A stretch of DNA of 64,000 bases from the NCBI RefSeq assembly GCF_013466425.1, contig NZ_CP059165.1:4216001-4280000 (forward strand), read 5' to 3'. Source of the DNA: Mycobacterium vicinigordonae. GTDB lineage: Bacteria > Actinomycetota > Actinomycetes > Mycobacteriales > Mycobacteriaceae. A program made the translations under genes and the position numbers. The notes beneath the pieces are model-generated. The model saw only the letters and a list, made by a program, of their open reading frames with translations, ran no database searches and was not told the DNA's origin. Of the stretch, positions 1 through 18,407 are shown piece after piece (within the stretch, counting starts at the first letter, position 1; every line of letters starts with the position of its first letter).

Positions 1-1911
1 ACCGAGCACCACGTCGGGCTGTAGGCCCCACGACTGCCAGAGCCGGGCCAACCCCATCTCGACTGCGAAGAGGGCGGGCTGGGCGTAGCTGGTTTGGCGC
101 AGCGTGTGCTCGGCGTCGGGGTCGAAAATTACTTCCAACAATGGCTTTTCGAGCACCTGGGCGACCACCGCAGCACACCGGGCCATCGTCTCGGCGAACA
201 CCGGTTCGGTGTCGAACAACTCCCGCGCCATCCCGGCGAACTGGCTGCCCTGTCCGGGAAACAGCCACGCTGTCTTCGGGACGTCGGCGGATTCCCCGCG
301 CACCAGGCCCGGCGCCGGACGGTCGTCGGCGAGTGCGGCAAGTAGCTCACCGGCGGACTCGGTGGAATTCACCACTAGTGCGGCACGGTGCTCGAAGTGA
401 GATCGACCGACCCCGGCGGTGAAACAAAGATCCGCCAGATCGGCGTCCGGATGCGCGGTCAACCACTCGCGGTACCGCTGGGCGAGCTGGACCAGAGCGG
501 CCGGGCTGCGCGCCGACAGCGGCAGCAGGCCGAACCGCCGGTCATCATGCGCCGCGACCGGCGGCGGTGCCGAGCTGATGCGGATCGCCGGATCGGGCGC
601 TTCCTCAATAATGACGTGCGCGTTGGTACCCGAGAACCCGAATGAGCTGACCCCGGCGATACGTGGCACACCATTGCGCTCCCAGGCGGTGGGCTCCTGC
701 ACCACCCGCACCGCGAAGCGGTCCCAGGGAATGTGTGGTGACGGCGTGCGGAAATTCAAGTGCTTCGGCAACGCCCCGTGTTCGAGCGAGAGGATGACCT
801 TTATCACACCCGCGATCCCCGCGGCGGCCTCCAAATGCCCGATGTTCGTCTTCACCGAACCGATGAGCAGCGGCCGTTCCGGGTCACGGCCTTGGCCGAG
901 TACGGCACCGGCGGCCTGAACCTCGATCGGGTCGCCCAGCGACGTCCCGGTCCCGTGCGCCTCAAGGTAACCGACATCGCCGGCCGCGACGCCCGAACGC
1001 TGCAGTGCCTCGGTGATCACCCGCTGTTGGGCCACCCCGTTCGGGACGGTCAGACCGCCGGACGCGCCGTCCTGGTTGATCGCACTACCACGGATGACGG
1101 CCCTGATCCGGTCACCGTCGCGGATTGCGTCGTCGAGCCGCTTGATGACGATGACACCGCAGCCCTCGCCGCGCACATAGCCGTCCGCGGCGGCGTCGAA
1201 CGTCTTGCACCGGCCATCCGGCGCCAGCATGTGCGCGTGCGAGAAGGTGATCATGGTCGCGGGGCTAAGCAGCACGTTCGCGCCACCGGCCAGCGCCAGG
1301 TCGCACTCGCCATACCGCAGCGCCTGGCATGCCTGGTGGATCGCCACCAACGAGGAACTGCAGGCAGTGTCGACCGTAACCGCCGGGCCCTGCAGCCCCA
1401 TCCGGTAGCTGATCCGCCCGGCTCCGGCGGCCGCTGCGGTCCCGATCGCCATGTAGGCCTCGATCTCGGCGTAACTCAGCTCGTCGGAGGCCATTCCCAG
1501 GTAGTCGTGCGTCGACAGGCCCACGAACACTCCGGTGTTGGAGTTCGCCAGGGACATCGGCGCGACACCCGCATGCTCGACCGCCTGCCAGGCAGTTTCC
1601 AGCAGCAGGCGGTGCTGCGGATCCATCAACCTGACCTCACGGGCCGACACCCCGAAAAACGGCGCGTCGAAGCCGGTCACATCATCGATGAAGCCGGCCC
1701 GGCGGGCGACCATCTTGCCGGGCGCGTCGGGATCCGGGTCGAAGAACTCCTCGACATCCCAACGATCCTTGGGGATGTCCGACACCGCGTCACGGCCCTG
1801 TTGCAGCACGTCCCAAAACTCGTTCGCGTCGGCGGCACCCGGGAATCGCGCGGCGTAACCGACGATCGCGAATCCCGATGTCGACGCCGTCAGATCCTCG
1901 ACAAATGCCAT
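1..1911 (-). CDS. Type I polyketide synthase, N-terminal part (KS plus start of AT)
   Basis: Open frame of 637 codons running off the left edge. The protein begins MAFVEDLTAS and goes straight into a beta-ketoacyl synthase domain (about residues 12-440). The active-site Cys is C184 in DTACSSS, and the two His motifs EAHGTGTSLGDP and KTNIGHLEAAAG are present. A linker follows, and from about residue 549 an acyltransferase domain (FPGQGSQFAG). The window ends at PDVVLG, just before the expected GHSxG nucleophile motif, so AT specificity and later domains cannot be read. The ATG at 1911 follows a GGGAGGG ribosome site. The protein should extend a beta-keto or methyl-branched acyl chain in the cytosol. 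Divergence from a PapA gene suggests its product is esterified onto a sugar. Which Pks family it belongs to is not resolved. Confidence 0.93.
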   Translation of the reverse strand, partial: MAFVEDLTASTSGFAIVGYAARFPGAADANEFWDVLQQGRDAVSDIPKDRWDVEEFFDPDPDAPGKMVARRAGFIDDVTGFDAPFFGVSAREVRLMDPQHRLLLETAWQAVEHAGVAPMSLANSNTGVFVGLSTHDYLGMASDELSYAEIEAYMAIGTAAAAGAGRISYRMGLQGPAVTVDTACSSSLVAIHQACQALRYGECDLALAGGANVLLSPATMITFSHAHMLAPDGRCKTFDAAADGYVRGEGCGVIVIKRLDDAIRDGDRIRAVIRGSAINQDGASGGLTVPNGVAQQRVITEALQRSGVAAGDVGYLEAHGTGTSLGDPIEVQAAGAVLGQGRDPERPLLIGSVKTNIGHLEAAAGIAGVIKVILSLEHGALPKHLNFRTPSPHIPWDRFAVRVVQEPTAWERNGVPRIAGVSSFGFSGTNAHVIIEEAPDPAIRISSAPPPVAAHDDRRFGLLPLSARSPAALVQLAQRYREWLTAHPDADLADLCFTAGVGRSHFEHRAALVVNSTESAGELLAALADDRPAPGLVRGESADVPKTAWLFPGQGSQFAGMARELFDTEPVFAETMARCAAVVAQVLEKPLLEVIFDPDAEHTLRQTSYAQPALFAVEMGLARLWQSWGLQPDVVLG

Positions 1912-1965
1912 GCGTTGCCCTCCCTGGTCGGCCGGCCTGGTTGCGCCGCAGCTTGAATCTCCCCC

Positions 1966-1993
1966 GGCACAGTATGGCAAGCGAGGCTGTGCC
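1966..1993. promoter_or_regulatory. Inverted repeat in the pks/papA divergent promoter
   Basis: GGCACAG (1966-1972) and CTGTGCC (1987-1993) are perfect inverted arms separated by 14 bases, inside the 241-base gap between the divergent pks and papA starts. Spacing and position suit a dimeric regulator or a stem in the mRNA leader. No regulator gene lies next to it. Function is inferred from position only. Confidence 0.4.
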
Positions 1994-2152
1994 CGACACG
2001 AACGCCAAGCAATGTCACAGAGTGCTCCTGCCATCCCACGAGGCCGTGGTCGGCGCGTCGTCGGCGGCGGCGACGGACCCCGCCGGAGCGGTTATGTTGA
2101 TCTCGATGGCGGCGTGGCCGCACCGCACCGTCGCGAAACCTTGGAGGAAATA

Positions 2153-3574
2153 TTGCGCATCGGCAAAATCACTATCGGCACCATTGATCAATGGAGCCTG
2201 CGGCCGGGCACGGTTATCTCCTGGCACCCGACCGACGCATCCCGGGAAAAAGCTCGGCAAGCCCCGGTCAGTTCTGTCCCGGTAAGCTACATGCAAGGTC
2301 AACATCTCCGCAATTATTACGAAAGGACTGCCTCAGGACTCGATTTTTCGCGTCTTATTTTGGCTGGCTGCGAGGTGCCCGGTCAGTGCGATATCGCCGT
2401 GATGGATCGAGCTCTCAACGCCTACCTCCGCCGGCACGACACCTACCGCAGTTGGTTCCAGTACGCCGACACCGGCGACTTTGTCAGACACTCGCTCGTC
2501 GATCCCGCCGATATTGAATTCGTTCCGATAAATCATGGCGAGATGAGCGCCGAGGAAATACGCGATCACGTAATTGCGACACCGAACCCGCTGGAATGGG
2601 GATGCTTCGCTTTCGGCGTCGTACAGAACCAGGACCACTTTACTTTCTATGCCAGCATCGACCACGTTCACGGTGACGCGACGTTGATCGGCATCACGAT
2701 GCTGGAGTCCCATGCGATGTATCAGTCCCTGACGGCGGGAAAGGGTGCGCTCGCGCTGCCCGACAGCGGCAGCTACGACGACTACTGCGTCCAGCAGCGG
2801 GACTTTACCTCGCAGTTGACCGCAGATTCGCCGGCGGTACGCGCATGGATCGACTTTGCCGAGAACAATGACGGTGGGTTTCCCGAGTTCCCGCTTCCCC
2901 TCGGCAATCCGTTGAAGCCGTCCGACAGCGACATGGTCACCGAACTGCTGATGGACCCGCAACAAACGGCCCGATTCGAGTCCGCCTGCGAGGGTGCCGG
3001 CGCTCGATTCATCGGCGGCTTGTTCGCGTGCATGGCCCTGGTCGAACATGAATTCACCGGCGCCCCCACGTATTACGGGCTGACCCCGCGGGATACCCGG
3101 CGCACCTCGGAGAATTTCATGACCCAAGGCTGGTTCACGGGCTTGGTTCCTATCACGGTACCGATTGCGGCAGCATCGTTTGTCGATGCCGCCTGGGCGG
3201 CACAGAATTCTTTCGATTCCGGACTCGATATGGCGAAGGTGCCGTATTACCGCGTGCTGGAATTAGCGCCGTGGCTGGGTTGGCCAAGGCCGAACTTCCC
3301 GGTGTCGAACTTCTTGCACGGCGACGCCGCTCCGCTCAACGCTGTGCTCGCCGCCGCCGAGATGGGTTACGCGGACAATATCGGGATCTACTCCGACGGC
3401 AGGTTCTCGTATCAGTTGACTATCTACATTTTTCGGTACGGAGAAGGCACTTCAATGGCAGTGATGTATCCGGACAACCCGGTTGCGCAAAAATCTGTCG
3501 CCCGGTACATCCAAGCGATGAAGGCAGTCTGCACCCGGGTCGCGGAAAGCGGCGATTGGGGACGCGTTGCGTAG
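2153..3574 (+). CDS. PapA-family (PapA1/PapA3-like) acyltransferase
   Basis: 473 aa, close to PapA3 (472 aa). TTG at 2153 is chosen because GGAGG at 2143-2147 sits 5 bases upstream and the protein then opens MRIGKITIG, like PapA1/A2/A3. Family blocks are visible: LRRHDTYRSWF, FVRHSLVDPADIEF, FPEFPLPLGNP, MTQGWFTGLVP and YSDGRFSYQ. The condensation-type motif is H171-V-H-G-D175-A176, i.e. HxxxD followed by Ala where Gly is usual. Relatives move polyketide or fatty acyl chains onto trehalose in the cytosol. Being divergent from a PKS and upstream of MmpL and Chp-like genes supports the same role here, but the acceptor sugar is not known from sequence. Confidence 0.92.
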   Translation: MRIGKITIGTIDQWSLRPGTVISWHPTDASREKARQAPVSSVPVSYMQGQHLRNYYERTASGLDFSRLILAGCEVPGQCDIAVMDRALNAYLRRHDTYRSWFQYADTGDFVRHSLVDPADIEFVPINHGEMSAEEIRDHVIATPNPLEWGCFAFGVVQNQDHFTFYASIDHVHGDATLIGITMLESHAMYQSLTAGKGALALPDSGSYDDYCVQQRDFTSQLTADSPAVRAWIDFAENNDGGFPEFPLPLGNPLKPSDSDMVTELLMDPQQTARFESACEGAGARFIGGLFACMALVEHEFTGAPTYYGLTPRDTRRTSENFMTQGWFTGLVPITVPIAAASFVDAAWAAQNSFDSGLDMAKVPYYRVLELAPWLGWPRPNFPVSNFLHGDAAPLNAVLAAAEMGYADNIGIYSDGRFSYQLTIYIFRYGEGTSMAVMYPDNPVAQKSVARYIQAMKAVCTRVAESGDWGRVA

Positions 3575-3704
3575 TGTGGGGTAGTTCGATGGACGCTGCG
3601 GCGCGGAGAAGCTCGACTTCCGATCAAGCGTGGAACAAGGGTTCGCGCGGCGCAGCCAGGGGTGTCGCTGGGGGGCGCACGCTGGGACCGGAGGTGGGGA
3701 CACT

Positions 3705-6692
3705 GTGCGACGCCTAGCCGATTTTGTGGTGCGGTGGCCGTGGGTGGTGATCGGGTTCTGGGTCGCGATCGCGGTCGCGCTGCCGCTGACGATGCCGTCC
3801 CTCAACGAGATGTCCCAGAAGCATCCGCTTTCCATCCTCCCCAGCGACGCGCCGTCGAGCGTCACCGCCCGCAAGATGACCGAGGCCTTTCACGAGTCGA
3901 GCTCGGAAAACCTGTTGCTCGTGGTCCTGACGAACGACAAGGGGCTCGGACCGGCAGAGGAAAGCGTCTACCGCAAGCTGGCGGCAGCGCTGCACGACGA
4001 CACCCGCGATGTGGTGATGGTCCAGGATTTCGTCAGCACTCCACCTCTGCGCCCCGTATTGACCAGCAAAGACAACAAGTCCTGGGTGCTGCCGGTCGGG
4101 CTGTCCGGCGAGTTAGGCACTCCGCGGTCCTATGCCGCGTTCGGACGTGTCTCGCAGATCGTCAAACACACCGTCGCCGGCGCACCGCTGACCGTCAACC
4201 TAACGGGGCCGGCAGCCACTGTGGCCGATCTCACTGCCGCCGGGGAGCATGACCGGCTGCCGATCGAGGTGGCTATCGCAGTCCTGGTGCTCGCCGTGCT
4301 GCTGGTCGTTTACCGCAACCCGATCACCATGTTGCTGCCGCTGGCGGCGATCGGAATGTCCCTGCTGGTGGCGCAGGCGTTGGTGGCGGGGTTCTCCCAA
4401 TTGACCGGCTTCGGCGTGTCCAATCAGTCCATCGTGTTCCTGAGCGCCATGATCGCCGGCGCCGGTACGGACTATGCCGTTTTCCTCATCAGCCGATATC
4501 ACGACTACCTGCGTGCCGGCGCGGACTTCGACGACGCCGTACGCCGGGCGTTGATCTCCATCGGGAAGGTGATCGCCGCGTCTGCGGCCACGGTAGGCAT
4601 CACCTTCCTTGGCATCAGCTTCGCCCGGATGGGTGTGTTCTCGACGGTCGGCGCGTCGTCGGCAATCGGGATCGGCGTCGCATTCCTGGCCGCGGTGACC
4701 TTGCTTCCCGCCATCCTGGTGATCGCTGGACCACGCGGCTGGGTCCAGCCACGGCGCGAACGCACCGCACGATTCTGGCGGCGATCCGGCATCCGTATCG
4801 TCCGCCGGCCGAAGGCTCACCTGGTGGCCAGTGTGCTTGTGCTGGTCGCGTTGGCGAGTTGCGCAGGGCTGGTTCGCTTTAACTACGACGACCGTAAGGT
4901 GGTGCCGGCGTCGGCTCCGAGTTCGATCGGATATACCGCCCTCGAGCACCATTTCCCGGTGAACCAGTCCGTTCCCGAATACATCCTCATCCAGTCCCCA
5001 CACGACCTACGGACCCCGAAGGCGCTGGCCGACCTGGAACAGATGGCGGACCGGATCAGCCAGCTGCCGAACATCGCCAGAGTCAGCGGCATCACCCGGC
5101 CCACCGGTGTGGTCCCGCAAGAATTCCGCGCGACGTATCAGGCGGGTGCCGTCGGCGCCCGGCTCGGCGGGGCGTCGGACGTGATCAGTGACCACAATGA
5201 CGACCTCACCAAATTGGTCGACGGCGCCAACACACTGGCCGTCAACCTGCGGGATGTGCGCGGCCAGGTCAACCAGATGGTTGCCAGCATGCAGGGCCTG
5301 ACCGACGCCTTCGCCTCCATGAAGACCCAATACGGCGGCGAGAAACTGGTGCGGGAGGTCGTGACCGCGGCCAAGCTGGTCAACAGCATCAACACCTTGG
5401 GCAACTCCATGGGCGTGAACTTCTCCGCCGTCAAGGACATGTTCGGCTGGATCGGACCGGTGCTGACGGCGCTGCAGGGCAACCCCGTCTGCGACGCCGA
5501 CCTCTCTTGTAGCGACACCCGCGCCCAGTTCCAGCGGCTGGTCGCCGCCCGTGGCGACGGCAGTCTCGACCAGATCAACGAACTGGCCGGACAACTGCAG
5601 ACGTTCCAGGACCGGCAAACCCTGAACGCATCGGTGGACCGCCTGCGGGCGGTGCTCACCGGTTTCACCAGAGCGATGCACTCCCTGGGGCTGGACCAGC
5701 CGGGCGGCCTGCAGTCGGGCCTGACCAATCTGAAACAGGGTGCCGACCGCTTCGCCGGCGGGAGCCGGCAGCTGGCCGACGGCGTGGAACAGCTGGTCGA
5801 ACAGGTTAGGCAGTTGGGCGCAGGGCTCGGCGACGCATCGGCGTTCCTGCTCTCGATGAAGAATGACGCGGCCGACCCGTCGATGGCGGGGTTCAACATC
5901 CCAGCCCAACTGCTGCACTTGGAGGAGTTCAAAAAGGCCGCCAAGATGTTCATCTCGCCCGACGGACGCTCGGTGCGCTACCTGGTGCAGACGAAGTTGA
6001 ATCCGTTCAGCGCCGAGGCGATGGACCAGGTCAACGCGATCACCGATACCGCGCGGGGCGCCCAACCCAACACCGCGTTGGCGGACGCCAACATATCGAT
6101 GGCCGGATATCCCGTCACGCTGCGCGACACACGCAACTACTACGAGCGCGACATTCGCTACATCATCGTCGTGACCGTTCTGGTCGTGTTGCTGACCTTG
6201 ATGGCGCTGCTGCGTGCCGTGGTCGCACCGCTATACCTGGTCGGATCGGTCATCATCTCCTACCTGTCCGCTGTCGGTATCGGCGTGCTGGTGTTCCAAT
6301 TCCTACTAGGTCAGCAATTGCATTGGAGCGTGCCACCTTTGGCGTTCGTTGTGCTGGTCGCGGTGGGCGCCGACTACAACATGCTGTTCGTCTCCCGAAT
6401 GCGTGACGAGTCGCCGCACGGCATGCGTTACGGCGTGATCCGCACCCTGACCTCCACCGGCGGCGTGATAACCGCGGCGGGTCTGATCTTCGCCGCCTCG
6501 ATGTTCGGTCTGCTGTTCTCCAGCATCGGCACCGTGATCCAGGCCGGATTGGTGATCGGCGTCGGCATCCTGCTGGACACGTTCCTGGTGCGCACCATCA
6601 CGGTGCCCGCCATCGCTACGCTGGTCGGCAAGGGGAGTTGGTGGCCGTCACACCCGAGGCCGCAAGCGCTACCCGCCGACCAGGCCGACTAG
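3705..6692 (+). CDS. MmpL-family lipid transporter (MmpL10/MmpL8-like)
   Basis: 995 aa from GTG 3705, preceded by GGAGGTGGGG at 3690-3699. An in-frame extension upstream to 3630 has no good start signal. RND architecture: an N-terminal membrane helix ([20 protein letters not shown]), a periplasmic loop, a five-to-six helix bundle from about residue 185, a long second periplasmic loop with coiled-coil-like stretches (about 400-800), and a second helix bundle. The proton-relay Asp-Tyr pairs are in GTDYAVFL and GADYNMLF. It lies 130 bases after papA and 68 bases before the Chp-like gene, probably in one transcript. By context it should move the acylated lipid made by the PKS and PapA across the inner membrane. 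Confidence 0.93.
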
Positions 6693-6760: not shown

Positions 6761-7864
6761 ATGAAGAAACTACTCGCAGGAGTCACGGCGGCGGTAACTC
6801 TGGGCGCCTCAGGTTATTTCGGTGCCGGCCTGGCCAAAGCCGACGACCCGCCGCCTGCCGATCCGACGGCTCCCGGCGGCAACGCCTACGCATTGGGCGG
6901 TGCGCACGTCTTGGGCATCCCCTACGACGAATACATCCGCCGCGAAGGCGACGAGTGGTTCCCCGGGCTGCGACGGCAGATTGTCGACTATCCGGCAGGT
7001 CAGGTCCAGGGCCATGTGCTGGGACGGATCTTCCCGGGAATCGGCAAACTGGACGAGGAATTTCCCGGGCTCGGAGCGGACGGTCCCAGCATCGGCGAGT
7101 CCGTCGATGTCGGTGAAAACAATCTGCTCGCGGCGATCCACGCCGGCGGCCCTGGGACGGCAATTGGATTGTCCGAGGGGTCACTGGTGCTCAATGCCGT
7201 GCAGGCCCGGCTCGCCAACGATCCGACCGCTCCCCCACCAGACCAGTTGACGTTCGCCACCTTCGGCGATCCGGTCGCGCGGCATCCCTTCGGTCAGAGC
7301 TTCCTGACCGCCATGTTCCCGGTCGGCTCCGTGGTGCCCGCGATGGACTACACCATCCCGCCTCCGGTGGAGAGCCAGTACAACACTAAGCAATTCATTT
7401 CGGCCTACGACTCGATCGCCGACTTCCCGGACCGGCCGGACAACCTGCTGGCCCTGGCCAACACGCTGGTGGGCCTCGCCACCGGCCACACCGCGGTGGC
7501 GTTCACCAACCCCAGCATGGTGCCGCCCCAGAACATCCGGACGACCGTCAATTCACGCGGCGCCACGACGACGACGTATCTGATCCCCGAGCGGCACCTT
7601 CCGTTGGTGCTTCCGCTCGGCTATCTCGGCGTGCCGGACGAGTTGCTGAGTCAGATGGACGCCGAGTTGGCGCCGATGATCAACGCAGCCTATTCACGCA
7701 ACGACGATCCACTGACGGCTCCGGTTCAGGTGGATCCGGTGCACGGGTTCGACCCGGCCGCCGTCACGGCACCGGCGACGCAGGCCACCTTCGGCGGTGG
7801 CGCCGATCCGGTCTCGCAGATTCTCTCTGGCGCGCTGGCCGTGCTGAACCAAGGTCATCGCTGA
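6761..7864 (+). CDS. Secreted PE-PPE-domain serine hydrolase/acyltransferase (Chp-like)
   Basis: 367 aa. A signal peptide or N-terminal anchor (residues 1-27, ending GLAKA before DDPP) precedes a PE-PPE alpha/beta-hydrolase fold. The nucleophile elbow is GLSEG with S138; candidate triad partners are the Asp in [12 protein letters not shown] and the His in PERHLPL. Chp1 (sulfolipid) and Chp2 (polyacyltrehalose) are relatives that finish acylation of trehalose lipids at the membrane, next to MmpL8 or MmpL10. Position directly after an MmpL gene fits the same role: transesterification of an acyl-sugar on the outer face. The start at 6761 has only a weak ribosome site (GAGCGGGA). Confidence 0.88.
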
Positions 7865-7935: not shown

Positions 7936-9900
7936 TTGGCGGAGGAGCCGCCGCTTGGCGGCACGACCGAAGAGTGGCACACCGGATCCCACTTCGGGCC
8001 CTACTTGCTCAAGCGACTTCTGGGGCGGGGCGCGTTCGGAGAGGTCTACGAGGCCCTCGACACGCGGAAAAGCCGATCGATAGCGCTCAAGCTGCTGCCG
8101 CCGTCCTACTCTGCCGACCCGAGCTTTCGCAGACGGTTGTTCCGAGAGGCCAGCACTGCGGGCAGACTCAACGAACCTCATGTCGTCCCGATCCACGATT
8201 TCGGGGAGATCGAGGGAAAGCTCTTCATCGATATGCGTTTGATCCCCGGCACGGACCTCCGCACCGTGTTGGACGAGAGCGGACCACTGGACCCGGTGCG
8301 CGCGGTGTCGATCGTCGCCCAGATCGCCTCCGCGCTCGACGCGGCCCATGCCGAACAGATCGTCCACCGCGACGTCAAACCAGCGAATATCTTGCTGGCG
8401 CCGGAGGATTTCGCCTGCCTCGTCGACTTCGGGTTGGCCAGCGCCGCCACTGACGTCAAACTAACCAGTACCGGCACCACCGTCGGCACCTTCGCCTACA
8501 TGGCTCCCGAACGATTCACCGACGCCGAGGTCGATCATCGGTCGGACATCTACGCCTTGACGTGTGTGCTCTACGAGTGCCTGACCGGTGCCACGCCCTA
8601 CTCGATCAGCGACCGGACGGCCTTGATCGCCGCGCATCTGGCCAGCCCCATCCCCCGCCCCAGCCGATATCCGGGCGTGCCCGCCGGCTTCGACGACGTC
8701 ATCGCTCAAGGAATGGCAAAGGAAGGCGAAGACCGCTATCCCAAGGCAGCCGACCTGGCCTCCGCCGCGCACCGAGCTCTGAGCAGCGCGCCACCCCAAG
8801 ACAAAACGACCGTCGCGACCATGGCCCCCGTGGCCGACGCGACGACCGATGCCACGGCGGGGACGGGAAAACGACGACGACGCATCCCGAGCCGAGCCGC
8901 GCTGGTCGCTATCGGCGTCGTGGTTGCCCTGGTTGCCGCGGCGGCGGCGATCGGCTGGTTCAGCTCTCGCCATCACCGACCTTCAGCCGCCGCTCCCAAG
9001 CCTGCGATGGCATCTATCGCGCGGATCGCGGCCACCATTGGGGTAGGCAAACGCCCCGAGGCGGTAGCAATCGACGCCGTCAATCATGTCGCCTACACCG
9101 CTAACTACCAAGACGACAGTGTCTCGATGATCGATACGGTCAGACGCGCCGTCGCGGCGACTGTGCCGGTAGGCAAAGGCCCGGTAGGCATCGCGGTGGA
9201 CCCGGCCAGCCACACTGCCTGCACGGCCAACAATCGAGATGACAGCGTGTCGGTGATCGATACGGTCGGAGGCGCAGTCGCCGCCACGGTACGAGTGGGC
9301 ACAAACCCGTGGGGGGTATCAATCGACCCCAGCACCCGCGCGGCCTATGTGGCCAACATGTGGGATTACACAGTCTCGGTGATCAACCTCGACAGCCGCA
9401 CCGTCACCGCCACGATCCCGGTCGGCAAAAACCCCTACGGTGTGGCGATCGATCCCACCGCACACACCGCCTACGTCGCGAACAGCAGCGACGGCACCTT
9501 GTCAGCGATCGATACACACAGCCTCGCCGTCGTGGCCACTATCCCAGTAGGAAACGACCCCCGTGGCGTGGCGGTGGACCCGCTCACCCACACGGCCTAT
9601 GTCACGAACGAAGCGGAGGGTGCCACGTCGGTGGTCAATCTGGAAAATCGGCGGGTCATCGCAACCATCCACATTGGCAACAGTCCGTACGGAGTGACCG
9701 TCGATCCCGCCAACCAGATCGTTTACACGGCAAATCACGATAGTGCCGTCTCGGTGATCGACGCCAAATCGTTCACCATCGTCGGCGCAATTCGTATCGG
9801 GAAGGACACCTTCGCTGTGGATGTCGACCCCATCAACCACATCGTTTACACAGCCAACCAAGACAACACGGTATCGGTGATAGAACCAGCAGGGTCGTAG
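7936..9900 (+). CDS. Membrane Ser/Thr protein kinase with C-terminal seven-repeat YVTN propeller
   Basis: 654 aa from TTG 7936 (GGAGG at 7926-7930, five bases away). The kinase domain covers about residues 20-285: glycine loop GRGAFGEVYEA (30-40), Lys52 in ALKLL, HRDVKPANIL with catalytic D146, DFG with D164, and GTFAYMAPE. A Thr/Ala-rich juxtamembrane linker and KRRRRIPSR precede one membrane helix at about 322-344. The outer part (about 360-650) is seven repeats of roughly 42 residues of the type VxATIPVGxxPxGVAVDPxxHTAYVAN, predicted to form a seven-bladed beta-propeller. Architecture is like PknD (kinase, helix, propeller), but the blades are YVTN type rather than NHL. A possible -10 (TAAACT, 7896-7901) suggests its own promoter. 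The ligand is unknown. Confidence 0.93.
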   Translation: MAEEPPLGGTTEEWHTGSHFGPYLLKRLLGRGAFGEVYEALDTRKSRSIALKLLPPSYSADPSFRRRLFREASTAGRLNEPHVVPIHDFGEIEGKLFIDMRLIPGTDLRTVLDESGPLDPVRAVSIVAQIASALDAAHAEQIVHRDVKPANILLAPEDFACLVDFGLASAATDVKLTSTGTTVGTFAYMAPERFTDAEVDHRSDIYALTCVLYECLTGATPYSISDRTALIAAHLASPIPRPSRYPGVPAGFDDVIAQGMAKEGEDRYPKAADLASAAHRALSSAPPQDKTTVATMAPVADATTDATAGTGKRRRRIPSRAALVAIGVVVALVAAAAAIGWFSSRHHRPSAAAPKPAMASIARIAATIGVGKRPEAVAIDAVNHVAYTANYQDDSVSMIDTVRRAVAATVPVGKGPVGIAVDPASHTACTANNRDDSVSVIDTVGGAVAATVRVGTNPWGVSIDPSTRAAYVANMWDYTVSVINLDSRTVTATIPVGKNPYGVAIDPTAHTAYVANSSDGTLSAIDTHSLAVVATIPVGNDPRGVAVDPLTHTAYVTNEAEGATSVVNLENRRVIATIHIGNSPYGVTVDPANQIVYTANHDSAVSVIDAKSFTIVGAIRIGKDTFAVDVDPINHIVYTANQDNTVSVIEPAGS

Positions 9901-9959: not shown

Positions 9960-11063
9960 TTGCGGTTGAGCCAGCCACGTCAGCCACGCAGCGCGATCAT
10001 CGGCACCGGCATGGTCGGCTCGGTGCACGCCCACGCCGTGCAGCGCGCAGGCGGCCAACTGGTTGCGGTCTGCGCCGCCTCCGCGCAAAGCAGCGAGCAC
10101 TCCGCGCGACGCCTCGGCGCGCAACGGTGGGCCACCGCGGCAGAAATCTGCGCCGCTGATGACATCGACGTCGTTCACATTTGCACGCCAAATAATCTGC
10201 ACGTCGAGCAGACCACTGCGGTGTTGGCGGCAGGCAAGCACGTCATCTGCGAAAAGCCTTTGGCCACAACGGTTGCCGAAGCCGAGATTTTGGTCCAAGC
10301 GGCTTCGAAGGCGCAGACGGTGGCGGCCGTTTCGTTCATCTACCGGTTCTATGCCATGGCGCGCGAAGCCCGCTGCCGGATCCAGGACTCGGCGGTGTGG
10401 TTAATGCACGGTGGCTACCTACAGGACCACATGGCCAAGGCCGACCCAGCTGGCTGGCGATCGGATCCGGCGCAAAGCGGTGTCAGCATGACGTTCGCCG
10501 ACATCGGCTCGCACTGGTGCGATTTGGCGGAGTTCGTCACCGGCCACCGCATCACGAGCGTGTTCGCGACGGAAGCTGCGGCGCCGCGGTCGGGGGTCCG
10601 CCAGGATGACGGTGCCGTGGTCGCATTCCGCACCGACCGCGGAGCAATCGGAAGTGTGGTGGTCAGTCAGGCATCACCGGGGCGGAAGAACGAGTTGTTC
10701 TTCTCCTTCGACGGTCGTGAGACGGCGGTACGGTTCAATCAGGAACGCCCGGACGAACTGGTAGTTGGGGGCTTGCGTTCGACCACGGTGCTGGTGCGTG
10801 ATGCGGATGCACTGGATCCCCGCAGTGCCCGCTACTCATTGCTGCCGCCCGGTCACCCACAGGGTTACCAGGACTGCTTCAACCTTTTCGTCGCCGATGT
10901 CTACGAAGCGGTCCGCACCGGCAACGCACCCGAAGGTTTGCCGGTGTTCGCCGACGGTTTGCGCGCGGCGACGATCCACGCCGCGGTAGCGGCATCGGTG
11001 TCCAGTGGAACCTGGACCGCCGTCGCCGAATCACCTGCCACGGCGCCGGGAAGCCGGCCATGA
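9960..11063 (+). CDS. Gfo/Idh/MocA-family NAD(P)-dependent oxidoreductase
   Basis: About 367 aa. Rossmann motif IIGTGMVGSVHAHA at the N-terminus, ICTPNNLH and CEKPLATT (the usual EKP motif) around residues 75-105, and the family C-terminal sheet domain. The start may be TTG 9960 or TTG 9966; GGAAAAGAG at 9950-9958 favours the latter. Members oxidise or reduce sugars, inositols or related polyols. It overlaps the next Gfo/Idh gene by ATGA, so the two are co-translated and may act in sequence or as a heteromer. A sugar-modifying role in the neighbouring lipid pathway is possible but not shown. Confidence 0.88.
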   Translation: MRLSQPRQPRSAIIGTGMVGSVHAHAVQRAGGQLVAVCAASAQSSEHSARRLGAQRWATAAEICAADDIDVVHICTPNNLHVEQTTAVLAAGKHVICEKPLATTVAEAEILVQAASKAQTVAAVSFIYRFYAMAREARCRIQDSAVWLMHGGYLQDHMAKADPAGWRSDPAQSGVSMTFADIGSHWCDLAEFVTGHRITSVFATEAAAPRSGVRQDDGAVVAFRTDRGAIGSVVVSQASPGRKNELFFSFDGRETAVRFNQERPDELVVGGLRSTTVLVRDADALDPRSARYSLLPPGHPQGYQDCFNLFVADVYEAVRTGNAPEGLPVFADGLRAATIHAAVAASVSSGTWTAVAESPATAPGSRP

Positions 11064-12052
11064 ACGTCACCCCGGTGCGACTGGCTCTGATCGGCCTGGG
11101 CAATATGGGCACCGCACACCTGGAATACTTCCGCGATTTGCAACCTCAGGCGCGGATCTGCGCGGTCGCCGACAGTCACGTTCCTTTTGCCGAGCGGGCT
11201 GCCGCCAAAGTGCCTGCCGCGGCCGTCTTTCACGATCCCCTGGAATGCGTTAACGACGCCGACGTAGACGCTGTAGTGGTCGCGACGGCCGACGAAACGC
11301 ATCACGAGATCGTGCGCGCATGTATCGAGCGCGGCCTGTTCGTGCTCTGCGAAAAGCCTCTCACCACGACTGCGCAACAGTCGCGAGAGTTGGTCGAGGC
11401 AGAACGCGCCGCTGGCCGCCCGCTGGTGCAGGTGGGTCATATGCGCCGCTTCGACACCGACTATCTGGACCTGCATCGCAGGCTGCGGTCGGGCGAGGTC
11501 GGCGAGCCCGTGCTGATCAGCCAGCGACATCATAATCCGTTGGCGGTGATCAACTTTGACGAGACAGAGCTGATCACGAGTTCGGCTTCGCATGATATCG
11601 ATGTGTTCCGCTGGCTGGGCGGCGAGGACGTCAGGGACGTGTCTGCACTAACCACGGCCAGCAGTGACGGGTCGACGGTGATCGTCGTTCTCACCTTGAC
11701 CTCGCGGTCTGGTGTCGTCGGCGTCATGGAGCTTGGCCGTGGGCCGGGTCTGCGTTATGACATCGGTTGCGAACTCGTATGCAGTAGCGGCACGCTTGGC
11801 CTTCCGCACCCTGTGGACGATGCGTCCGCCAATAGCGTTGTCGCACAGTCAAAGCCGGGCGCCTGGATGGAGCGCTTCCAGCGTGCCTACCGGGATCAGG
11901 ATGCCGCGTGGCTGGCCAGTGTGGCCGGGGGGTCGACCAACGGACCAACGGCCTACGACGGATATGCCACCAACGTCGTCATCGACGCGGCGCTGGCAGC
12001 GTTGTCCAGTGGGCGCACCCAGCCGGTGTCACTTGAAATCGACCGCGCTTAG
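11060..12052 (+). CDS. Second Gfo/Idh/MocA-family oxidoreductase
   Basis: 330 aa, beginning at the ATG of the ATGA overlap with the preceding gene. Rossmann motif LIGLGNMGTAHLEYF, the EKP motif in LCEKPLTTT, and a catalytic-region His in HDIDVFRWLGGEDV. It resembles myo-inositol 2-dehydrogenase-like members of the family in length and layout. The substrate cannot be assigned. Sequence is clearly diverged from its upstream neighbour, so this is an old pair rather than a recent duplication. Confidence 0.88.
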   Translation: MNVTPVRLALIGLGNMGTAHLEYFRDLQPQARICAVADSHVPFAERAAAKVPAAAVFHDPLECVNDADVDAVVVATADETHHEIVRACIERGLFVLCEKPLTTTAQQSRELVEAERAAGRPLVQVGHMRRFDTDYLDLHRRLRSGEVGEPVLISQRHHNPLAVINFDETELITSSASHDIDVFRWLGGEDVRDVSALTTASSDGSTVIVVLTLTSRSGVVGVMELGRGPGLRYDIGCELVCSSGTLGLPHPVDDASANSVVAQSKPGAWMERFQRAYRDQDAAWLASVAGGSTNGPTAYDGYATNVVIDAALAALSSGRTQPVSLEIDRA

Positions 12053-12122: not shown

Positions 12123-13181
12123 ATGAGCACAACCCACCCTGACCGCCCGCTGCGAGTGATCCAGTGGACCACCGGCAATATCGGGCGCCGCTCACTGCAC
12201 GCCATTATCGGGAGGGCCGATCTGGAATTGGTGGGCGTGTACGCGCACGGGTCTGACAAGGTCGGTGTGGACGCCGCCGAGCTTTCCGGGTGGCCCGAAC
12301 CCACCGGCGTGCTCGCTACCAACGACATCGACGCGCTGATTGCGTTGGGTGCCGACGCGTGCTGTTATAACCCGTTGTGGCCCAACATCGATGAGTTGGT
12401 GCGGCTGCTGGAGTCCGGGGTCAACGTGTGCTCCAGCGCGGCCTGGATCACCGGTGGAAAGCAGAGCCCGCAGGACCGCGAGCGCATCGTCGAGGCTTGC
12501 GAGCGGGGTAATTCGACGATCTTCGGCAGCGGTGCACATCCCGGCATGACGAACATGGTCGGGATGGTGTTGTCGGCTTCCTGCGAGCGCGTCGACGAGA
12601 TCCGTATTACCGAATCGGTGGACTGCTCCACCTACGAGTCGGCCGGGACCCAGACGGCGATGGGGTTCTCGCAGGATCCGGCGACGCCCGGGTTGGCCGA
12701 AAGTGTGCGGCGCGAAAGCGAGGTGTTCGCCGAGTCGGCTGCGATGATGGCGGACGCGATCGGTGCCCGCCTGGACCGAATGACCTTTGACGTCACCTTC
12801 ACCGCGGCCACCGGCGACACCGATCTGGGCTTCATGACGATCCCGGCGGGGACCGTCGGCGGCGTCTACGGCTACCACCGCGGTTGGGAGGGTGATCGCA
12901 ACGTCGTCAGTGTTGGATTCAACTGGACGATGGGCAATCACATCAATCCGCCCAAACCGCTCGAACACGGCCACGTGATTCAGGTGTTCGGGCTGCCCAA
13001 CATGCGCACCGTCCTGCACTGCCTGCCTCCCAAGGATTGGAAGGAGCCAGGGTTCATGGGCCTGGGGATGATCTATACCGCGATGCCGGTGACCAACGCG
13101 GTCCCAGCGGTGGTTGCTGCCAAACCCGGCATCGTGACCCTGGCCGATCTGCCGCCGATCACCGGTCGGGTGGCGCGTTAG
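12123..13181 (+). CDS. DapB-like NAD(P)-binding dehydrogenase (DAP-dehydrogenase-like C-terminus)
   Basis: 352 aa. N-terminal Rossmann fold (VIQWTTGNIGRRSLHAII) related to dihydrodipicolinate reductase, followed by a mixed domain (FGSGAHPGMTNMVG, GYHRGWEG). Actinobacteria carry many paralogues of this type with no proven substrate. True DapB is shorter (about 245 aa) and has a different catalytic His-Lys motif, so lysine synthesis is unlikely. It starts 70 bases after the Gfo/Idh pair, with AAAGGAG at 12111-12117 upstream of the ATG. Confidence 0.8.
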   Translation: MSTTHPDRPLRVIQWTTGNIGRRSLHAIIGRADLELVGVYAHGSDKVGVDAAELSGWPEPTGVLATNDIDALIALGADACCYNPLWPNIDELVRLLESGVNVCSSAAWITGGKQSPQDRERIVEACERGNSTIFGSGAHPGMTNMVGMVLSASCERVDEIRITESVDCSTYESAGTQTAMGFSQDPATPGLAESVRRESEVFAESAAMMADAIGARLDRMTFDVTFTAATGDTDLGFMTIPAGTVGGVYGYHRGWEGDRNVVSVGFNWTMGNHINPPKPLEHGHVIQVFGLPNMRTVLHCLPPKDWKEPGFMGLGMIYTAMPVTNAVPAVVAAKPGIVTLADLPPITGRVAR

Positions 13182-13187
13182 GCGGGC

Positions 13188-13203: not shown

Positions 13204-13331
13204 ACCGAGCCACCCCGAGGAACGCTGGCGTCCACTAAGGGTTAACATACTTAGCCGAGCAAAGATTCTTGCCCGACAATTTCATGTCGGGCGGAAGCAA
13301 GCTCTGCGGCGGGTTGTTACAGGCAGGGTTG

Positions 13332-13817
13332 GTGCGCGAAAGGCGGTGGCAAGCGGTGGCGGTGCAGACTGGTTCACTCGCGGGGCGCGGTAGCCGCTTC
13401 TTGAAAAGAGCCTGGATACCCCTGGTCTTAGTGGTTGTCCTCGCCGTATCGGCCCTGGTGGTGTCCAGGCTGCACAAGATCTTCGGCTCACAGGACCTCA
13501 ATGCCAATGCGGGCCAGGGTATCGAGATCGTCCAGTTCAACCCCAAAGTCGTGGTTTATGAGGTCTCCGGGACCCCCGGAGCCACCGCCAGCATCAACTA
13601 CTGGGATGCCGACGCCAACACTCACCAAGTAGACGCGGCGCCGCTGCCGTGGTCGTTGACGATCTCGACGACACTGCCCTCCGTGAGCGCCAACATCATG
13701 GCGCAGACCGACGGCAGCCAAATCCACTGCCGCATCACCGTCGACGGTGTCGTGAGGGAAGAGAAGAGCTCCGATGGCGTCAACCCCCAGACCTTCTGCC
13801 TGGTGAAATCCGCATGA
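13332..13817 (+). CDS. MmpS-family membrane accessory protein (MmpS4-like)
   Basis: About 161 aa from GTG 13332, or 153 aa from GTG 13356; ATG 13269 is also in frame. One N-terminal membrane helix (RAWIPLVLVVVLAVSALVV) is followed by the extracytoplasmic MmpS domain with INYWDADAN, PLPWSL, CRITVDG and the terminal CLVKSA found in MmpS4/S5. MmpS4 partners MmpL4 in carboxymycobactin export. The gene overlaps the downstream mmpL by ATGA. No convincing IdeR iron box was found in the 150 bases upstream, so an iron link is not supported here. Confidence 0.9.
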   Translation: MRERRWQAVAVQTGSLAGRGSRFLKRAWIPLVLVVVLAVSALVVSRLHKIFGSQDLNANAGQGIEIVQFNPKVVVYEVSGTPGATASINYWDADANTHQVDAAPLPWSLTISTTLPSVSANIMAQTDGSQIHCRITVDGVVREEKSSDGVNPQTFCLVKSA

Positions 13818-16720
13818 GCGACCACGAGAACGAGGCGACCGGCCCGATCCGGGTCCAGGAGCCCGCCCGCCCCGGCGAAGCTGCCCCGCGTGCCGAACGC
13901 CCGCACCGGCCCGTCATCCCGCACGCCATCCGCATCTTCGCCATACCGATCATCTTGGCCTGGGTGTTTATCACGGTGCTGGTGAACGTCGTCGTCCCGT
14001 CGCTGGAGGTCGTGGGTGAAGCCCACTCCGCGCCGATGACTCCGATGGATGCACCGTCGATGAAGGCGATGATGCTGCTGGGCCACAACTTCAAGGAGTT
14101 CGACTCCAACAGCACCATCATGATCGTGCTGGAGAGCGGCCAGCCGCTGGGCGATCCGGCGCACCACTACTACGACAACCTGATTCGCCAGCTGCGCGAA
14201 CAACCCAACCACGTCCAGCACATCCAGGACTTCTGGGGTGACCGGCTGACCGCCGCCGGAGCCCAGAGCGCCGACGCCAAGGGCGCCTACGTGATGTTGA
14301 ACCTAGCCGGCAACCAGGGCACCACCGAGGCCAACGATTCGGTCGAGGCGGTCCGCAAGGTCATCGACAAGAACCCGCCACCGGCCGGGCTGAAGGTCTA
14401 CGTCACCGGCCCCGCCGCGCTCAGCGATGACATGCACGTCATCGGCAACGCCAGCCTGGCCAAAATCACCCTATTCACGCTGGGTGCGATCGCCATCATG
14501 TTGCTGCTGGTCTATCGATCGATCGTGACCACACTCGTGCAGTTGTTCATGACTTTCGTCGCGCTGGCGTCCGCGCGAGGAATCGTCGCGGTGCTGGCGT
14601 ACAACAACGCCTTCGGGCTGACCACGTTCGCCGCCAACATCCTGACCATGTTGGCAATCGCCGCGGGAACTGACTACGGCATCTTCCTGGTCGGTCGATA
14701 TCAGGAGGCACTGCGCGCCGGTGAGGACCGAGAAACGGCCTACTACACGACCTTTCGCGGGGTCACGCCTGTTGTGCTGGGCTCGGGCCTGACCATCGCC
14801 GGGGCGACGTACTGCCTGAGCTTTGCGCGGCTGCCCTGGTTCAACACCATGGGTGCGCCGGTCGCGATCGGCATGCTGGTCGTGGTGCTGGCCGGGGTCA
14901 CCTTGGGCCCCGCGGTGGTGTTCGTGGGTAGCAAGCTGCACCTGTTCGAATCCAAGCGTGCGGCCAAGCAGGGTCGGTTGTGGCGACGGGTCGGTACCGC
15001 CGTAGTGCGTTGGCCTGCACCGATTCTGGCGGTCAGCGCCGCGGTTGTGTTGGTCGGCATGGTGGCGCTGCCGAGCTTTAAGACGAGCTACAACGACCGC
15101 TATTACCTGCCGACTTCCGCGCCGTCGAACCAGGGCCAGGAAGCTGCCGATCGGCACTTCTCCCAGGCGCGGATGAACCCGGACATGCTAATGGTCGAGG
15201 CTAACCACGACATGCGGAACCCGGCTGACATGCTGGTGCTCGACCGGGTCGCCAAGAACGTGATGCGCACGGTCGGCATCGCGATGGTGCAGGACATCAC
15301 CAGACCGTTAGGCATCCCAATCCAGCACAGCTCCATACCATTTCAGAACAGCATGCAAAGCCAGACCACTATGCAGAACATGGCTTTCCTGCAGGACCGG
15401 ATGGCCGACATCACCAAGATGGCCGACGAGATGCAATTCATGATCGAGACCATGGAGCGGATGTACACGGTGACGCAGCATCTGGCCAGCGCCGCCGATG
15501 ACAGCGCCAAGACTACGGCGGAAACCGCCGAGATAACCAATAGATTGCGCGACCACATCGCCGATTTCGACGACTTCTGGCGACCCATTCGTGCCTACTT
15601 CTACTGGGAAAAGCACTGTTTCGACATCCCGATCTGCTGGTCGCTGCGGTCGCTGTTCGAGTCGCTAGACGGTTTCGACCAGCTGGCCGGCCAATTCGAC
15701 TTGCTTACCAAGGACATTCAGCGCACCGCAGATGCGACGCATGAAATGTTGCCGTTGATCCCGCCGATGATTGCGACGATGAAAACCACCAAGGCGCTGA
15801 CGCTCACGATGCAGTCGACGTTCAAGGCGATGCTGGATCAGATGAAAGCGTTGAGCGACACCGCCATCGTGATGGGGCAGAGTTTCGACGCTTCCAAGAA
15901 CGACGACATGTTCTATCTACCGCCCGAAGCGTTCGACAACCCGGACTTCCAGACCGGTCTGAGGATGTTCCTGTCGCCAGACGGCAAGTCAGCGCGTTTC
16001 TTCATCACCCATCAAGGTGATCCGATGACGCCGGAAGGCATTTCGCGTGTCGAAACCGAACGCACGGCCGCACAGGAGGGCTTGAAGCAGTCGTCGCTGG
16101 CCGACGCGAAGGTATATCTGGGTGGCACCGCCGCGACCTTCAAGGACATGCACGACGGCGCCAAGTACGACCTGATGATCGCGGTGGTGTCCGCGCTAAC
16201 GCTGATCTTCATGATCATGCTGCTACTCACTCGCAGCGTGGTCGCCGCACTGGTGATCGTGGGGACCGCAGCCAGTTCGATCGCGGCGTCGTTCGGGCTG
16301 TCGGTGCTGATCTGGCAGGACCTGTTCGGCATCAGAATCCACTGGATCGTGATGGCGTTGTCGGTGATCATCCTGTTGGCCGTGGGTTCGGACTACAACC
16401 TGCTGTTGGTATCGCGGTTCAAGGAGGAGATCCACGCCGGACTGAAAACCGGGATCATCCGGTCGATGGCCGGAACAGGTGGCGTGGTGACCGCGGCAGG
16501 GTTAGTGTTCGCGTTCACCATGGCGTCCATGCTGGGCAGTGATCTGCGCGTGTTGGGCCAGTTCGGGTCGACGGTGTGTATCGGTCTGTTGCTTGACACG
16601 CTGATCGTGCGCACGCTGCTGATGCCGTCAATCGCGACGCTGCTCGGGCGCTGGTTCTGGTGGCCGAAGCTGGTGCATCCGCGCGGCGACAACGCCCGGC
16701 GGACCTTCGCGCGCACCTAG
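13814..16720 (+). CDS. MmpL-family RND transporter (MmpL4/MmpL5-like)
   Basis: 968 aa, the same length class as MmpL4 (967). It begins at the ATG overlapping the mmpS stop. Twelve-helix RND layout, with the first helix at IPIILAWVFITVLVNVVVP and proton-relay motifs GTDYGIFLVGRY and GSDYNLLLVSRF. The second periplasmic loop (about 420-770) contains long Met-rich helices and CFDIPICWSLRSLF, as in MmpL4/MmpL5. With its MmpS it should form an inner-membrane exporter of siderophore or lipid. In this locus it could carry a second product of the lipid cluster; the substrate is not determined. Confidence 0.92.
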   Translation: MSDHENEATGPIRVQEPARPGEAAPRAERPHRPVIPHAIRIFAIPIILAWVFITVLVNVVVPSLEVVGEAHSAPMTPMDAPSMKAMMLLGHNFKEFDSNSTIMIVLESGQPLGDPAHHYYDNLIRQLREQPNHVQHIQDFWGDRLTAAGAQSADAKGAYVMLNLAGNQGTTEANDSVEAVRKVIDKNPPPAGLKVYVTGPAALSDDMHVIGNASLAKITLFTLGAIAIMLLLVYRSIVTTLVQLFMTFVALASARGIVAVLAYNNAFGLTTFAANILTMLAIAAGTDYGIFLVGRYQEALRAGEDRETAYYTTFRGVTPVVLGSGLTIAGATYCLSFARLPWFNTMGAPVAIGMLVVVLAGVTLGPAVVFVGSKLHLFESKRAAKQGRLWRRVGTAVVRWPAPILAVSAAVVLVGMVALPSFKTSYNDRYYLPTSAPSNQGQEAADRHFSQARMNPDMLMVEANHDMRNPADMLVLDRVAKNVMRTVGIAMVQDITRPLGIPIQHSSIPFQNSMQSQTTMQNMAFLQDRMADITKMADEMQFMIETMERMYTVTQHLASAADDSAKTTAETAEITNRLRDHIADFDDFWRPIRAYFYWEKHCFDIPICWSLRSLFESLDGFDQLAGQFDLLTKDIQRTADATHEMLPLIPPMIATMKTTKALTLTMQSTFKAMLDQMKALSDTAIVMGQSFDASKNDDMFYLPPEAFDNPDFQTGLRMFLSPDGKSARFFITHQGDPMTPEGISRVETERTAAQEGLKQSSLADAKVYLGGTAATFKDMHDGAKYDLMIAVVSALTLIFMIMLLLTRSVVAALVIVGTAASSIAASFGLSVLIWQDLFGIRIHWIVMALSVIILLAVGSDYNLLLVSRFKEEIHAGLKTGIIRSMAGTGGVVTAAGLVFAFTMASMLGSDLRVLGQFGSTVCIGLLLDTLIVRTLLMPSIATLLGRWFWWPKLVHPRGDNARRTFART

Positions 16721-16883
16721 CCTAGGAGCCGCGGGGCGCCAAGGGCAGACCGGTGAGCGGTGAAAACGCAAAGGATCCGTAGCAGAATCACGTTCGGCGC
16801 GAGTAATGCGCGAAATCTGCAACCAAGCGTGGGCTCGACTGTAGGGTCTTCACCACACAGTCACCGATGCTCAGGAGGCTACC

Positions 16884-18407
16884 GTGTCCGCGCTGCTGGT
16901 TACTCCTGACTTGTTGTCAACGGCGACAACAGAATTGGCGAACATCGGCACCACCGTCCACCTGTCTAATACCTCGGCCTTCGTCGGCACGACTGGGCTG
17001 GCGGCCGCGAGCGCCGATGAAATCTCGGTGGCGTTGGCTTCGATGTTCACCGAGTACGGCCAGCAGTACCAGGCGTTGGCTCAGCAGTTCGCGGCCTCCT
17101 ACGAACAATTCCTGCCCAGACTGCTCGAGGCCGCGCAGGCTTATGCGGCCGCCGAAACCGCCATCGTCAACCACCTTGCCTCCAGCGCATCGCACCTCAT
17201 CAACGATCCTGTCCTCGAGGTGACCGGGCGTCCGCTGTTCGGCGACGGCGCCAATGGCTACACCAATGCCCAAGGCGTGGGAACCACCGGTGGGGCCGGC
17301 GGTTGGCTGTACGGCACGGGCGGAGCCGGGGGCACCAGCACCGCCTACGGAGTCGCCGGGGGCGCCGGGGGCGCCGGCGGTGTGTTGTGCGGCAATGGCG
17401 GCATCGGCGGTAGCAGCCTGTACGGCGGCATGCCCGGCGGACCCGGGGGCTCGGCGGGCCTGATCGGCATCGGCGGCACCGGCGGGGCCAGCGGACCCGG
17501 CGGCATCGGCGGCCCCGGTGGTCGAGGCGGCCTCTTGGGAATGCCCGGCACCGCAGGGGTCAGCACCGCCTTGGGGCCCAACCAGACGCTGATCCATCCG
17601 GGCCAGTACGGCAGCCCGATACTGAATATCTCGGTCGGCGGCGGGCCGAGCTTGCCGGTCACCGTCGATTCAGGCGCCTCCGGTCTGGTGGTGCCCCCGC
17701 AATACGTCGACTTTGCGACTCTCGGCGCGCCGACCGGCACGGGCAGCGTCAGTTACGGCGGCGCCGTCGTCGTCAACTACAAGACCTATCTGACCACGCT
17801 GAACTTCGGTAATGGAATCGTCAGCCAGCCAACCACAATCGGCGTGGCCACCGATGCTCACTACAGCACGGGACAGTCGATCCCCCTTTCGTCGCTGACC
17901 GCCTACCTGGGGGTGGGTCCGAACAACGACTATCCGTTCCCCGCCCCGGTGACCGCGGCGCTGCCGGGAACAATGAGCGATGGTGTGCTGATCAATCTGC
18001 CACGCGGCCTACTGCAGTTCGGGCCCAACCCGCTGCCACCGATCCTCGATATAAACGGGTCTCCGAGAACCGTTGTGCAAGTGCAGATCAACAACGGAAT
18101 GCCGCAGACCGTCGGGACCTTTTTTGACTCCGGTGGGGAGCTGGGTGCTGTCCCTCAATCGTTGGTGCCTGGTCTCGCGATCGGCAACCACCTGCCCGCG
18201 GGCACGGTCATTACCGTGACCACGATCAACGGTGTGCCGCTCTACACGCAAACGGTGACCGCGACCCAGACTCCATTTGTTGTCGGGTCGGCCACGGCGA
18301 ACAACTACTACGTATTCAACACGGGGTCGTACCCATTCTCGCAGTTGCCCGTCTACATCTGGAACAACGACCCGGTAGGTACGACGATCATCGACCAGCA
18401 GATCTGA
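16884..18407 (+). CDS. PE-family protein with C-terminal aspartic protease domain (PecA-like)
   Basis: 507 aa from GTG 16884 (AGGAGG at 16873-16878). A PE domain (1-95) carries an ESX-5 type YxxxE signal in AYAAAETAIV. It is followed by a short Gly/Ala PGRS-like linker (about 125-225) and a protease domain (about 230-507). Two D-S-G triads are visible: D262 in VDSGASGLVVP and D415 in FDSGGELGAVP, one per lobe, as in pepsin-type enzymes and the PE_PGRS35/PecA group. Predicted to be exported by ESX-5 to the cell surface, where PecA-type enzymes process lipase-PE proteins. It converges on degV with a gap of only seven bases. Confidence 0.9.
   Translation: MSALLVTPDLLSTATTELANIGTTVHLSNTSAFVGTTGLAAASADEISVALASMFTEYGQQYQALAQQFAASYEQFLPRLLEAAQAYAAAETAIVNHLASSASHLINDPVLEVTGRPLFGDGANGYTNAQGVGTTGGAGGWLYGTGGAGGTSTAYGVAGGAGGAGGVLCGNGGIGGSSLYGGMPGGPGGSAGLIGIGGTGGASGPGGIGGPGGRGGLLGMPGTAGVSTALGPNQTLIHPGQYGSPILNISVGGGPSLPVTVDSGASGLVVPPQYVDFATLGAPTGTGSVSYGGAVVVNYKTYLTTLNFGNGIVSQPTTIGVATDAHYSTGQSIPLSSLTAYLGVGPNNDYPFPAPVTAALPGTMSDGVLINLPRGLLQFGPNPLPPILDINGSPRTVVQVQINNGMPQTVGTFFDSGGELGAVPQSLVPGLAIGNHLPAGTVITVTTINGVPLYTQTVTATQTPFVVGSATANNYYVFNTGSYPFSQLPVYIWNNDPVGTTIIDQQI

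Follow-up and report, generated by a model that had tools for sequence, protein, structure and literature searches.

Does a gene row of Mycobacterium vicinigordonae that combines a polyketide synthase (PKS), a PapA-type acyltransferase, MmpL-type transporters, a Ser/Thr kinase and two Gfo/Idh oxidoreductases belong to an undescribed lipid pathway, or can it be placed in a named one? The row lies at the left end of the stretch of DNA that was analyzed (64,000 nucleotides, G000:C1:4216001-4280000, hereafter the window), in a genome of 6,266,765 bases in one contig. An initial annotation, made from the sequence alone, had described an undescribed locus for the assembly, export and sensing of an acylated sugar, perhaps oxidised or modified. 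Sequence comparisons make it very probable that window 1-7864, together with the upstream part of the PKS gene, represents a variant trehalose polyphleate (TPP) locus that lacks a linked fadD23 gene, and that the kinase, Gfo1 and Gfo2 genes (span 7936-12052) form a separate cassette at the junction between the PE and DapB-like genes in this lineage.

Protein families were assigned by Pfam and NCBIfam searches. For the survey of TPP loci, named genomes were scanned with PapA, and the best 80 of 112 relatives are the basis of all counts out of 80; these are nearly all labelled Mycobacterium or Mycolicibacterium (19 Mycolicibacterium-named), and the TPP loci of M. smegmatis and M. abscessus lie outside them. 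Each surveyed locus extends only 10 kb past PapA. Neighboring genes were scored by tblastn of the window's proteins, and a core gene was called at >55% identity. For the cassette, Gfo1 was searched in 297 sampled genomes at E 1e-40, genomes with at least 62% identity were taken as close carriers, and neighborhoods of up to 20 kb were examined around these. From 24.7 kb rightwards, the remaining 40 kb of the window were covered by a list of open reading frames (ORFs) of at least 350 amino acids (aa).

The published TPP genes are pks, papA3, mmpL10, fadD23 and pe (MSMEG_0408-0412 in M. smegmatis; PMC10465359), and a five-gene locus including MmpL10 and PE is also described in PMC11633156. In M. 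abscessus, pks is ma0939, and papA3, mmpL10, pe and fadD23 are ma0938c, 0937c, 0936c and 0935c (PMC1885439); that paper, from 2007, ascribed ma0935c-ma0939 to glycopeptidolipids, and the TPP role comes from later papers. Phage-resistant M. abscessus carried insertions in all five TPP genes, the mutants tested were TPP-negative, and a Pks with two acyltransferase (AT) domains is implied (PMC10465359).

The initial annotation had called for the PKS to be read past position 1, and had named a known pathway among the neighbors there as evidence against it. Read there, the PKS is a two-module enzyme with two ATs, which supports TPP: by Pfam, its domains are ketosynthase (KS)-AT-ketoreductase (KR)-acyl carrier protein (ACP) in module 1 and KS-AT-dehydratase (DH)-enoyl reductase (ER)-KR-ACP in module 2. 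Module 1 was matched by tblastn at 80/80 loci, always opposite to papA, and its best aligned segment was 67-81% identical at every one, so that the divergence ascribed to this PKS was not borne out. PapA was 70-78% identical to its relatives at the 80 loci (45% and 48% to its paralogues in the same genome), and this PapA3-type acyltransferase adjoins the MmpL10 gene, as a TPP locus requires. All four core genes (PKS, PapA, MmpL10, PE) exceeded 55% identity at 74 loci. Four of the six others (L010, L030, L043, L046) stop short of the missing gene or close to it; by tblastn, PE was not matched at L053, and at L017 a close MmpL10 was not found and PE reached only 48%.

The PE protein scored 636.8 bits against NF041570 'acyltransferase PE' (cut-off 580); of 198 genomes sampled in the genus, 133 hold a match to it at E 1e-120 or better. 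For the first MmpL, fragments of M. smegmatis MmpL10 were translated from the primers printed in PMC12183618 for the borders of its coiled coil, and 19/25, 8/11 and 8/14 residues were identical; it was the best of 22 MmpL-type proteins of its own genome on two of the three fragments (the 21 others reached at most 11/25 on the first and 6/11 on the second). Its closest paralogue in the genome is 50% identical, the others at most 31% over the aligned part. The listed ORF has Asp-Tyr pairs at residues 281 and 915; the Asp-Tyr pair of MmpL10 is named in PMC11633156.

Gene order, PKS domains, NF041570 and conservation thus match the core to the named TPP pathway. The set of PKS, PapA, MmpL and Chp-like genes was correctly recognised as a toolkit for acyltrehalose-type assembly and export, but its core is not undescribed. 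A new glycolipid class was rejected on the published gene order and the high conservation. An apparently unknown lipid cluster is now filed under a pathway important for phage therapy and envelope biology.

The same protein families serve diacyltrehalose (DAT), polyacyltrehalose (PAT) and sulfolipid-1 (SL-1), and PE relatives often bear the name 'diacyltrehalose acyltransferase' in JGI records, which would suit a PKS set making one of these lipids with methyl-branched chains. This is nevertheless highly improbable. The single-module methylmalonyl PKS of SL-1 and PAT has no counterpart in the locus: the enzyme here has two modules, and both ATs carry an HAFH motif, presumably indicating malonyl-CoA specificity. 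The gene order is that of TPP, and such lipids have candidate genes elsewhere in the genome, namely other PapA, MmpL and fatty acyl-AMP ligase (FAAL) genes at 2.73-2.75 Mb. That region (G000:C1:2727000-2753000; L154, L161) holds FAALs, the 50%-identical MmpL and the PapA paralogues of 45-48%, and is possibly a second acyltrehalose-type lipid cluster.

In phleic acids, every second extension leaves a double bond. The PKS has a single dehydratase and a single zinc-type enoyl reductase region by Pfam, both in module 2. In the PKS at L003:1800-13034 (minus strand), the Pfam dehydratase is seen in module 2 alone; this dehydratase, or else a partner enzyme, may act for both modules. On the model of the route published for M. 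smegmatis and M. abscessus, long polyunsaturated phleic acyl chains would come from the bimodular PKS, PapA3 would load acyl groups onto trehalose to give diacyltrehalose, MmpL10 would export this, and PE would transfer phleic acyl groups from one exported molecule to another to form TPP. The kinase-Gfo1-Gfo2 genes would have arrived between the PE and DapB-like genes in this lineage, and an oxidised or modified sugar need not be assumed.

The distribution of the cassette was determined separately. No match to Gfo1 or Gfo2 of >45% identity was obtained by tblastn at any of the 80 TPP loci, and the only kinase match at E 1e-10 among them was at L054 (37%); the DapB-like gene was seen downstream at 39 of the 80, where the junction was thus in view. 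Gfo1 was found in 23 of the 297 genomes, nine of them close carriers (own genome included). Gfo2 follows Gfo1 in seven of the eight other close carriers (the contig of G294 ends), and a kinase match precedes Gfo1 in four (G294, G086, G181, G045). PKS, PapA, MmpL10 and PE were unseen beside the cassette in all eight carrier neighborhoods, that of G294 being one-sided with the contig ending past Gfo1. PapA of at least 75% identity was present on a separate contig in G071 and G294, and at a distance of 2.3 Mb in G117 and 1.6 Mb in G045; in G152 the PapA matches were only 57% and 49%, and in G086, G181 and G188, which carry Gfo1, a PapA match at 1e-100 was not found. At L128, L129 and L133, Gfo1-Gfo2 lies near a phosphotriesterase gene; one of the three has a kinase upstream, and the two others a gene of 253-256 aa, which at L129 encodes a methyltransferase by Pfam. 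This points to a cassette with variable partners. The window genome has nine kinase matches at E 1e-100 or better, query included, and a run of related Ser/Thr kinases (four matches in ~9 kb) is found at G000:C1:2781435-2790559. In a literature search, the sources of which were available in part, no published description of a kinase-Gfo1-Gfo2 cassette was found.

These counts bear on the sensing and oxidation of a sugar by the kinase and the Gfo enzymes, as had been proposed. The TPP operon might have captured the cassette, the membrane kinase sensing the envelope state by its propeller and the Gfo enzymes supplying or altering a sugar of the pathway. The papA3-mmpL10-pe-kin-gfo1-gfo2-dapB-like-mmpS-mmpL row is on one strand and tightly spaced, the sequence immediately 5' of the DapB-like start is preserved as in G045, and the three cassette genes are open frames with recognisable catalytic motifs. 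Against this, the cassette was at 0/80 TPP loci, it lies ~1.6 Mb (G045) and ~2.3 Mb (G117) from the TPP-type PapA, PapA went unmatched at E 1e-100 in three genomes that hold cassette genes (G086, G181, G188), and M. smegmatis and M. abscessus make TPP with a published set of five genes that does not include the cassette (PMC10465359, PMC11633156). Such a capture is very unlikely; so, to the same degree, is a role in which the cassette, sitting where many slow growers have fadD23, adds an envelope-sensing kinase and sugar redox enzymes that are expressed with TPP and tune or modify it. A functional link by synteny between the kinase/Gfo genes and TPP was rejected, with 0/80 loci and the carriers' cassettes away from TPP, and the proposed sugar oxidation and sensing, which rested on these genes, lost this support. 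The kinase-Gfo1-Gfo2 genes are treated as a passenger until shown otherwise, and this lineage is the only one seen to have them in a TPP locus.

The separate cassette is also indicated by paired empty sites. G045 matches the window at 86-93% identity for PKS module 1, PapA, MmpL10 and PE and at 95% for the DapB-like gene (84-95% overall for TPP-region genes); its PE and DapB-like genes are ~40 bases apart and cassette-free. The G045 cassette lies elsewhere, between phosphotriesterase and FadE genes, and is 64, 73 and 60% identical for kinase, Gfo1 and Gfo2. In the window genome, the same phosphotriesterase and FadE genes are ~180 bases apart with no cassette between them. From these reciprocal empty sites it follows that the cassette occupies two different places in related genomes. 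In G071 and G117, Gfo1-Gfo2 lies beside the same phosphotriesterase gene, and a FAAL gene lies between PE and the DapB-like gene.

Whether one ancestral cassette was relocated within the lineage and its copy diverged fast, or the cassette was gained independently, was weighed on identity. Between G045 and G071, with cassettes at the same phosphotriesterase site, Gfo1 is 74% identical and the phosphotriesterase 91%, so rapid divergence seems to be usual for the cassette, which would suit relocation; the window and G045 cassettes are 60-73% identical against 84-95% for their TPP-region neighbors, and relocation, though possible, is not favored. In the Gfo1 tree, G000 was not paired with G045 and was unplaced, and the deep forks were unsupported. 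Base composition of the cassette was unremarkable against its surroundings. No mobile element turned up in Pfam scans of neighboring ORFs, and no other search for one was made.

Several observations weigh against reading the locus as a TPP locus with a separate cassette. The comparison with M. smegmatis and M. abscessus was made on gene order and on MmpL10 fragments from primers, and the third fragment does not discriminate (10/14 in another MmpL of the genome, 8/14 here). The cassette is co-directional with its neighbors, with gaps of 71, 59, -4 and 70 bases, which leaves room for co-transcription and a role in TPP. In neither the window genome nor G045 did the locus give a FAAL match, and the best FAAL of the window genome is 58% identical to the TPP-linked FAAL of Mycobacterium sp. 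E787. As fadD23 has no place in the locus, TPP production is not certain, and the locus is filed as a variant TPP-type locus rather than as a full member or a proven TPP producer.

A FAAL related to the TPP-linked one lies in the locus at 63/80 loci (in a number of the rapid-grower loci on the opposite strand, at 56-62% identity). At eight loci with the DapB-like gene directly after PE (L004, L018, L021, L024, L025, L027, L040, L057), FAAL was not seen, nor was it in the locus at L017, which is atypical. TPP-type loci with no linked fadD23 are those of the window genome (window 7864-12123), of G045 (L141) and of these eight named loci, including records of M. gordonae, M. asiaticum, M. europaeum and M. 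parascrofulaceum. The absence of a FAAL match from the window locus, from G045 and from the eight loci would also be expected of a remnant that lost TPP production with fadD23. This is unlikely, since the other genes are open and conserved in G045 at the identities given above, three FAAL matches (56-58% identical) lie elsewhere in the window genome, and a M. smegmatis fadD23 mutant retains some TPP, possibly via another ligase (PMC10465359). TPP loci lacking fadD23 pose a small puzzle as to the FAAL responsible for activating the starter fatty acid.

The remaining genes were assessed as neighbors (Table 1). The DapB-like gene was beside the TPP core in 39/80 loci and the MmpL4-like gene in 33/80, both in 0/19 Mycolicibacterium-named loci within the 10 kb surveyed. 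Of the co-occurrence across mycobacteria that had been expected, that of PKS, PapA, MmpL and PE stood, as did in part that of these two genes; that of the kinase and Gfo genes did not. The DapB-like gene was rejected as a part of TPP: it was present in 32/33 genomes searched (best matches in other genomes 78-95% identical) and lies far from TPP in the three rapid-grower chromosomes compared (L037, L056, L071). The upstream FadE was matched in 11/14 genomes searched, far from TPP in L037 and L071. The second MmpL belongs with MmpL4 and MmpL5, scoring ~1237 bits against the solved MmpL4 and ~1149 against the solved MmpL5. The DapB-like, MmpS, MmpL4-like and PecA-type genes are neighbors outside the published five-gene TPP set.

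From papA through the second mmpL (2153-16720), every gene is on the plus strand. The left flank beyond the PKS holds two FadE genes and comEA-, comEC- and holA-like genes; the right flank holds DegV, histidine phosphatase, RsfS and nucleotidyltransferase (NadD-like) genes. The TPP region is bounded by the comEA-like and DegV genes (L001:7082-8038 to window 18415), a slot that probably corresponds to the position of eis in M. tuberculosis. The families listed in the initial annotation (PapA, MmpL, propeller kinase, two Gfo/Idh, MmpS, second MmpL, PE-protease) were borne out by Pfam and NCBIfam. Its placement of the PKS was not, as this gene is on the minus strand, diverges from papA and does not lead its operon; its inventory held for the genes of its title and left the DapB-like gene (12123-13181) unnamed.

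Table 1. Positions of the genes described, in window coordinates
Feature	Position	Strand	Remarks
Bimodular type I PKS, TPP-type, 5' end	1..1911	-	Full gene G000:C1:4206800-4217911, 3703 aa; start near 1911
PapA3-type acyltransferase	2153..3574	+	Pfam Condensation; start codon approximate
MmpL10-type transporter	3630..6692 (listed ORF)	+	TIGR00833; conserved start of relatives probably near 3702
PE, PE-PPE-domain trehalose-lipid transacylase	6761..7864	+	NCBIfam NF041570 'acyltransferase PE'
Cassette gene 1, Ser/Thr protein kinase	7936..9900	+	One hydrophobic helix ~319-341; C-terminal YVTN-type propeller
Cassette gene 2, Gfo1, Gfo/Idh/MocA dehydrogenase	9960..11063	+	Pfam/NCBIfam
Cassette gene 3, Gfo2, IolG-like Gfo/Idh/MocA dehydrogenase	11060..12052	+	Below IolG-type cut-offs; 4-base overlap with Gfo1
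DapB / 2,4-diaminopentanoate-dehydrogenase-like protein	12123..13181	+	Pfam/NCBIfam; between Gfo2 and MmpS; widespread in mycobacteria
MmpS-type membrane protein	13269..13817	+	PF05423
MmpL4/MmpL5-type transporter	13649..16720 (listed ORF)	+	Probable true start near 13.83 kb
PE-PGRS protein with PecA-family aspartic protease domain	16884..18407	+	PF20729, PF00934, NF038019 over cut-off

Four known systems were compared with the window. Propeller-bearing mycobacterial Ser/Thr kinases share the kinase-transmembrane-YVTN propeller layout of the cassette kinase, which differs in being joined with Gfo1-Gfo2 and scores below the NCBIfam cut-off of its best model, StpK7. The MmpS4-MmpL4 and MmpS5-MmpL5 pairs are strongly alike in the second MmpL and in the MmpS directly before it, whereas the window pair has a DapB-like gene linked to it and, at many loci, TPP as well. 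The SL-1 (pks2-papA1-mmpL8-chp1) and PAT (pks3/4-papA3-mmpL10-chp2) loci of M. tuberculosis have the families and the logic of acyltrehalose assembly and export in common with the window, where the PKS is two-module and divergently transcribed (as compared with published descriptions). The TPP locus of M. smegmatis and M. abscessus differs in that the window has no fadD23 in the locus, carries kinase-Gfo1-Gfo2 after pe, and continues with DapB-like, mmpS, mmpL4-like and PecA-type genes; shared with it are the pks divergent from papA3-mmpL10-pe, the two-AT PKS, the PE transacylase family and the similar borders of the MmpL10 coiled coil.

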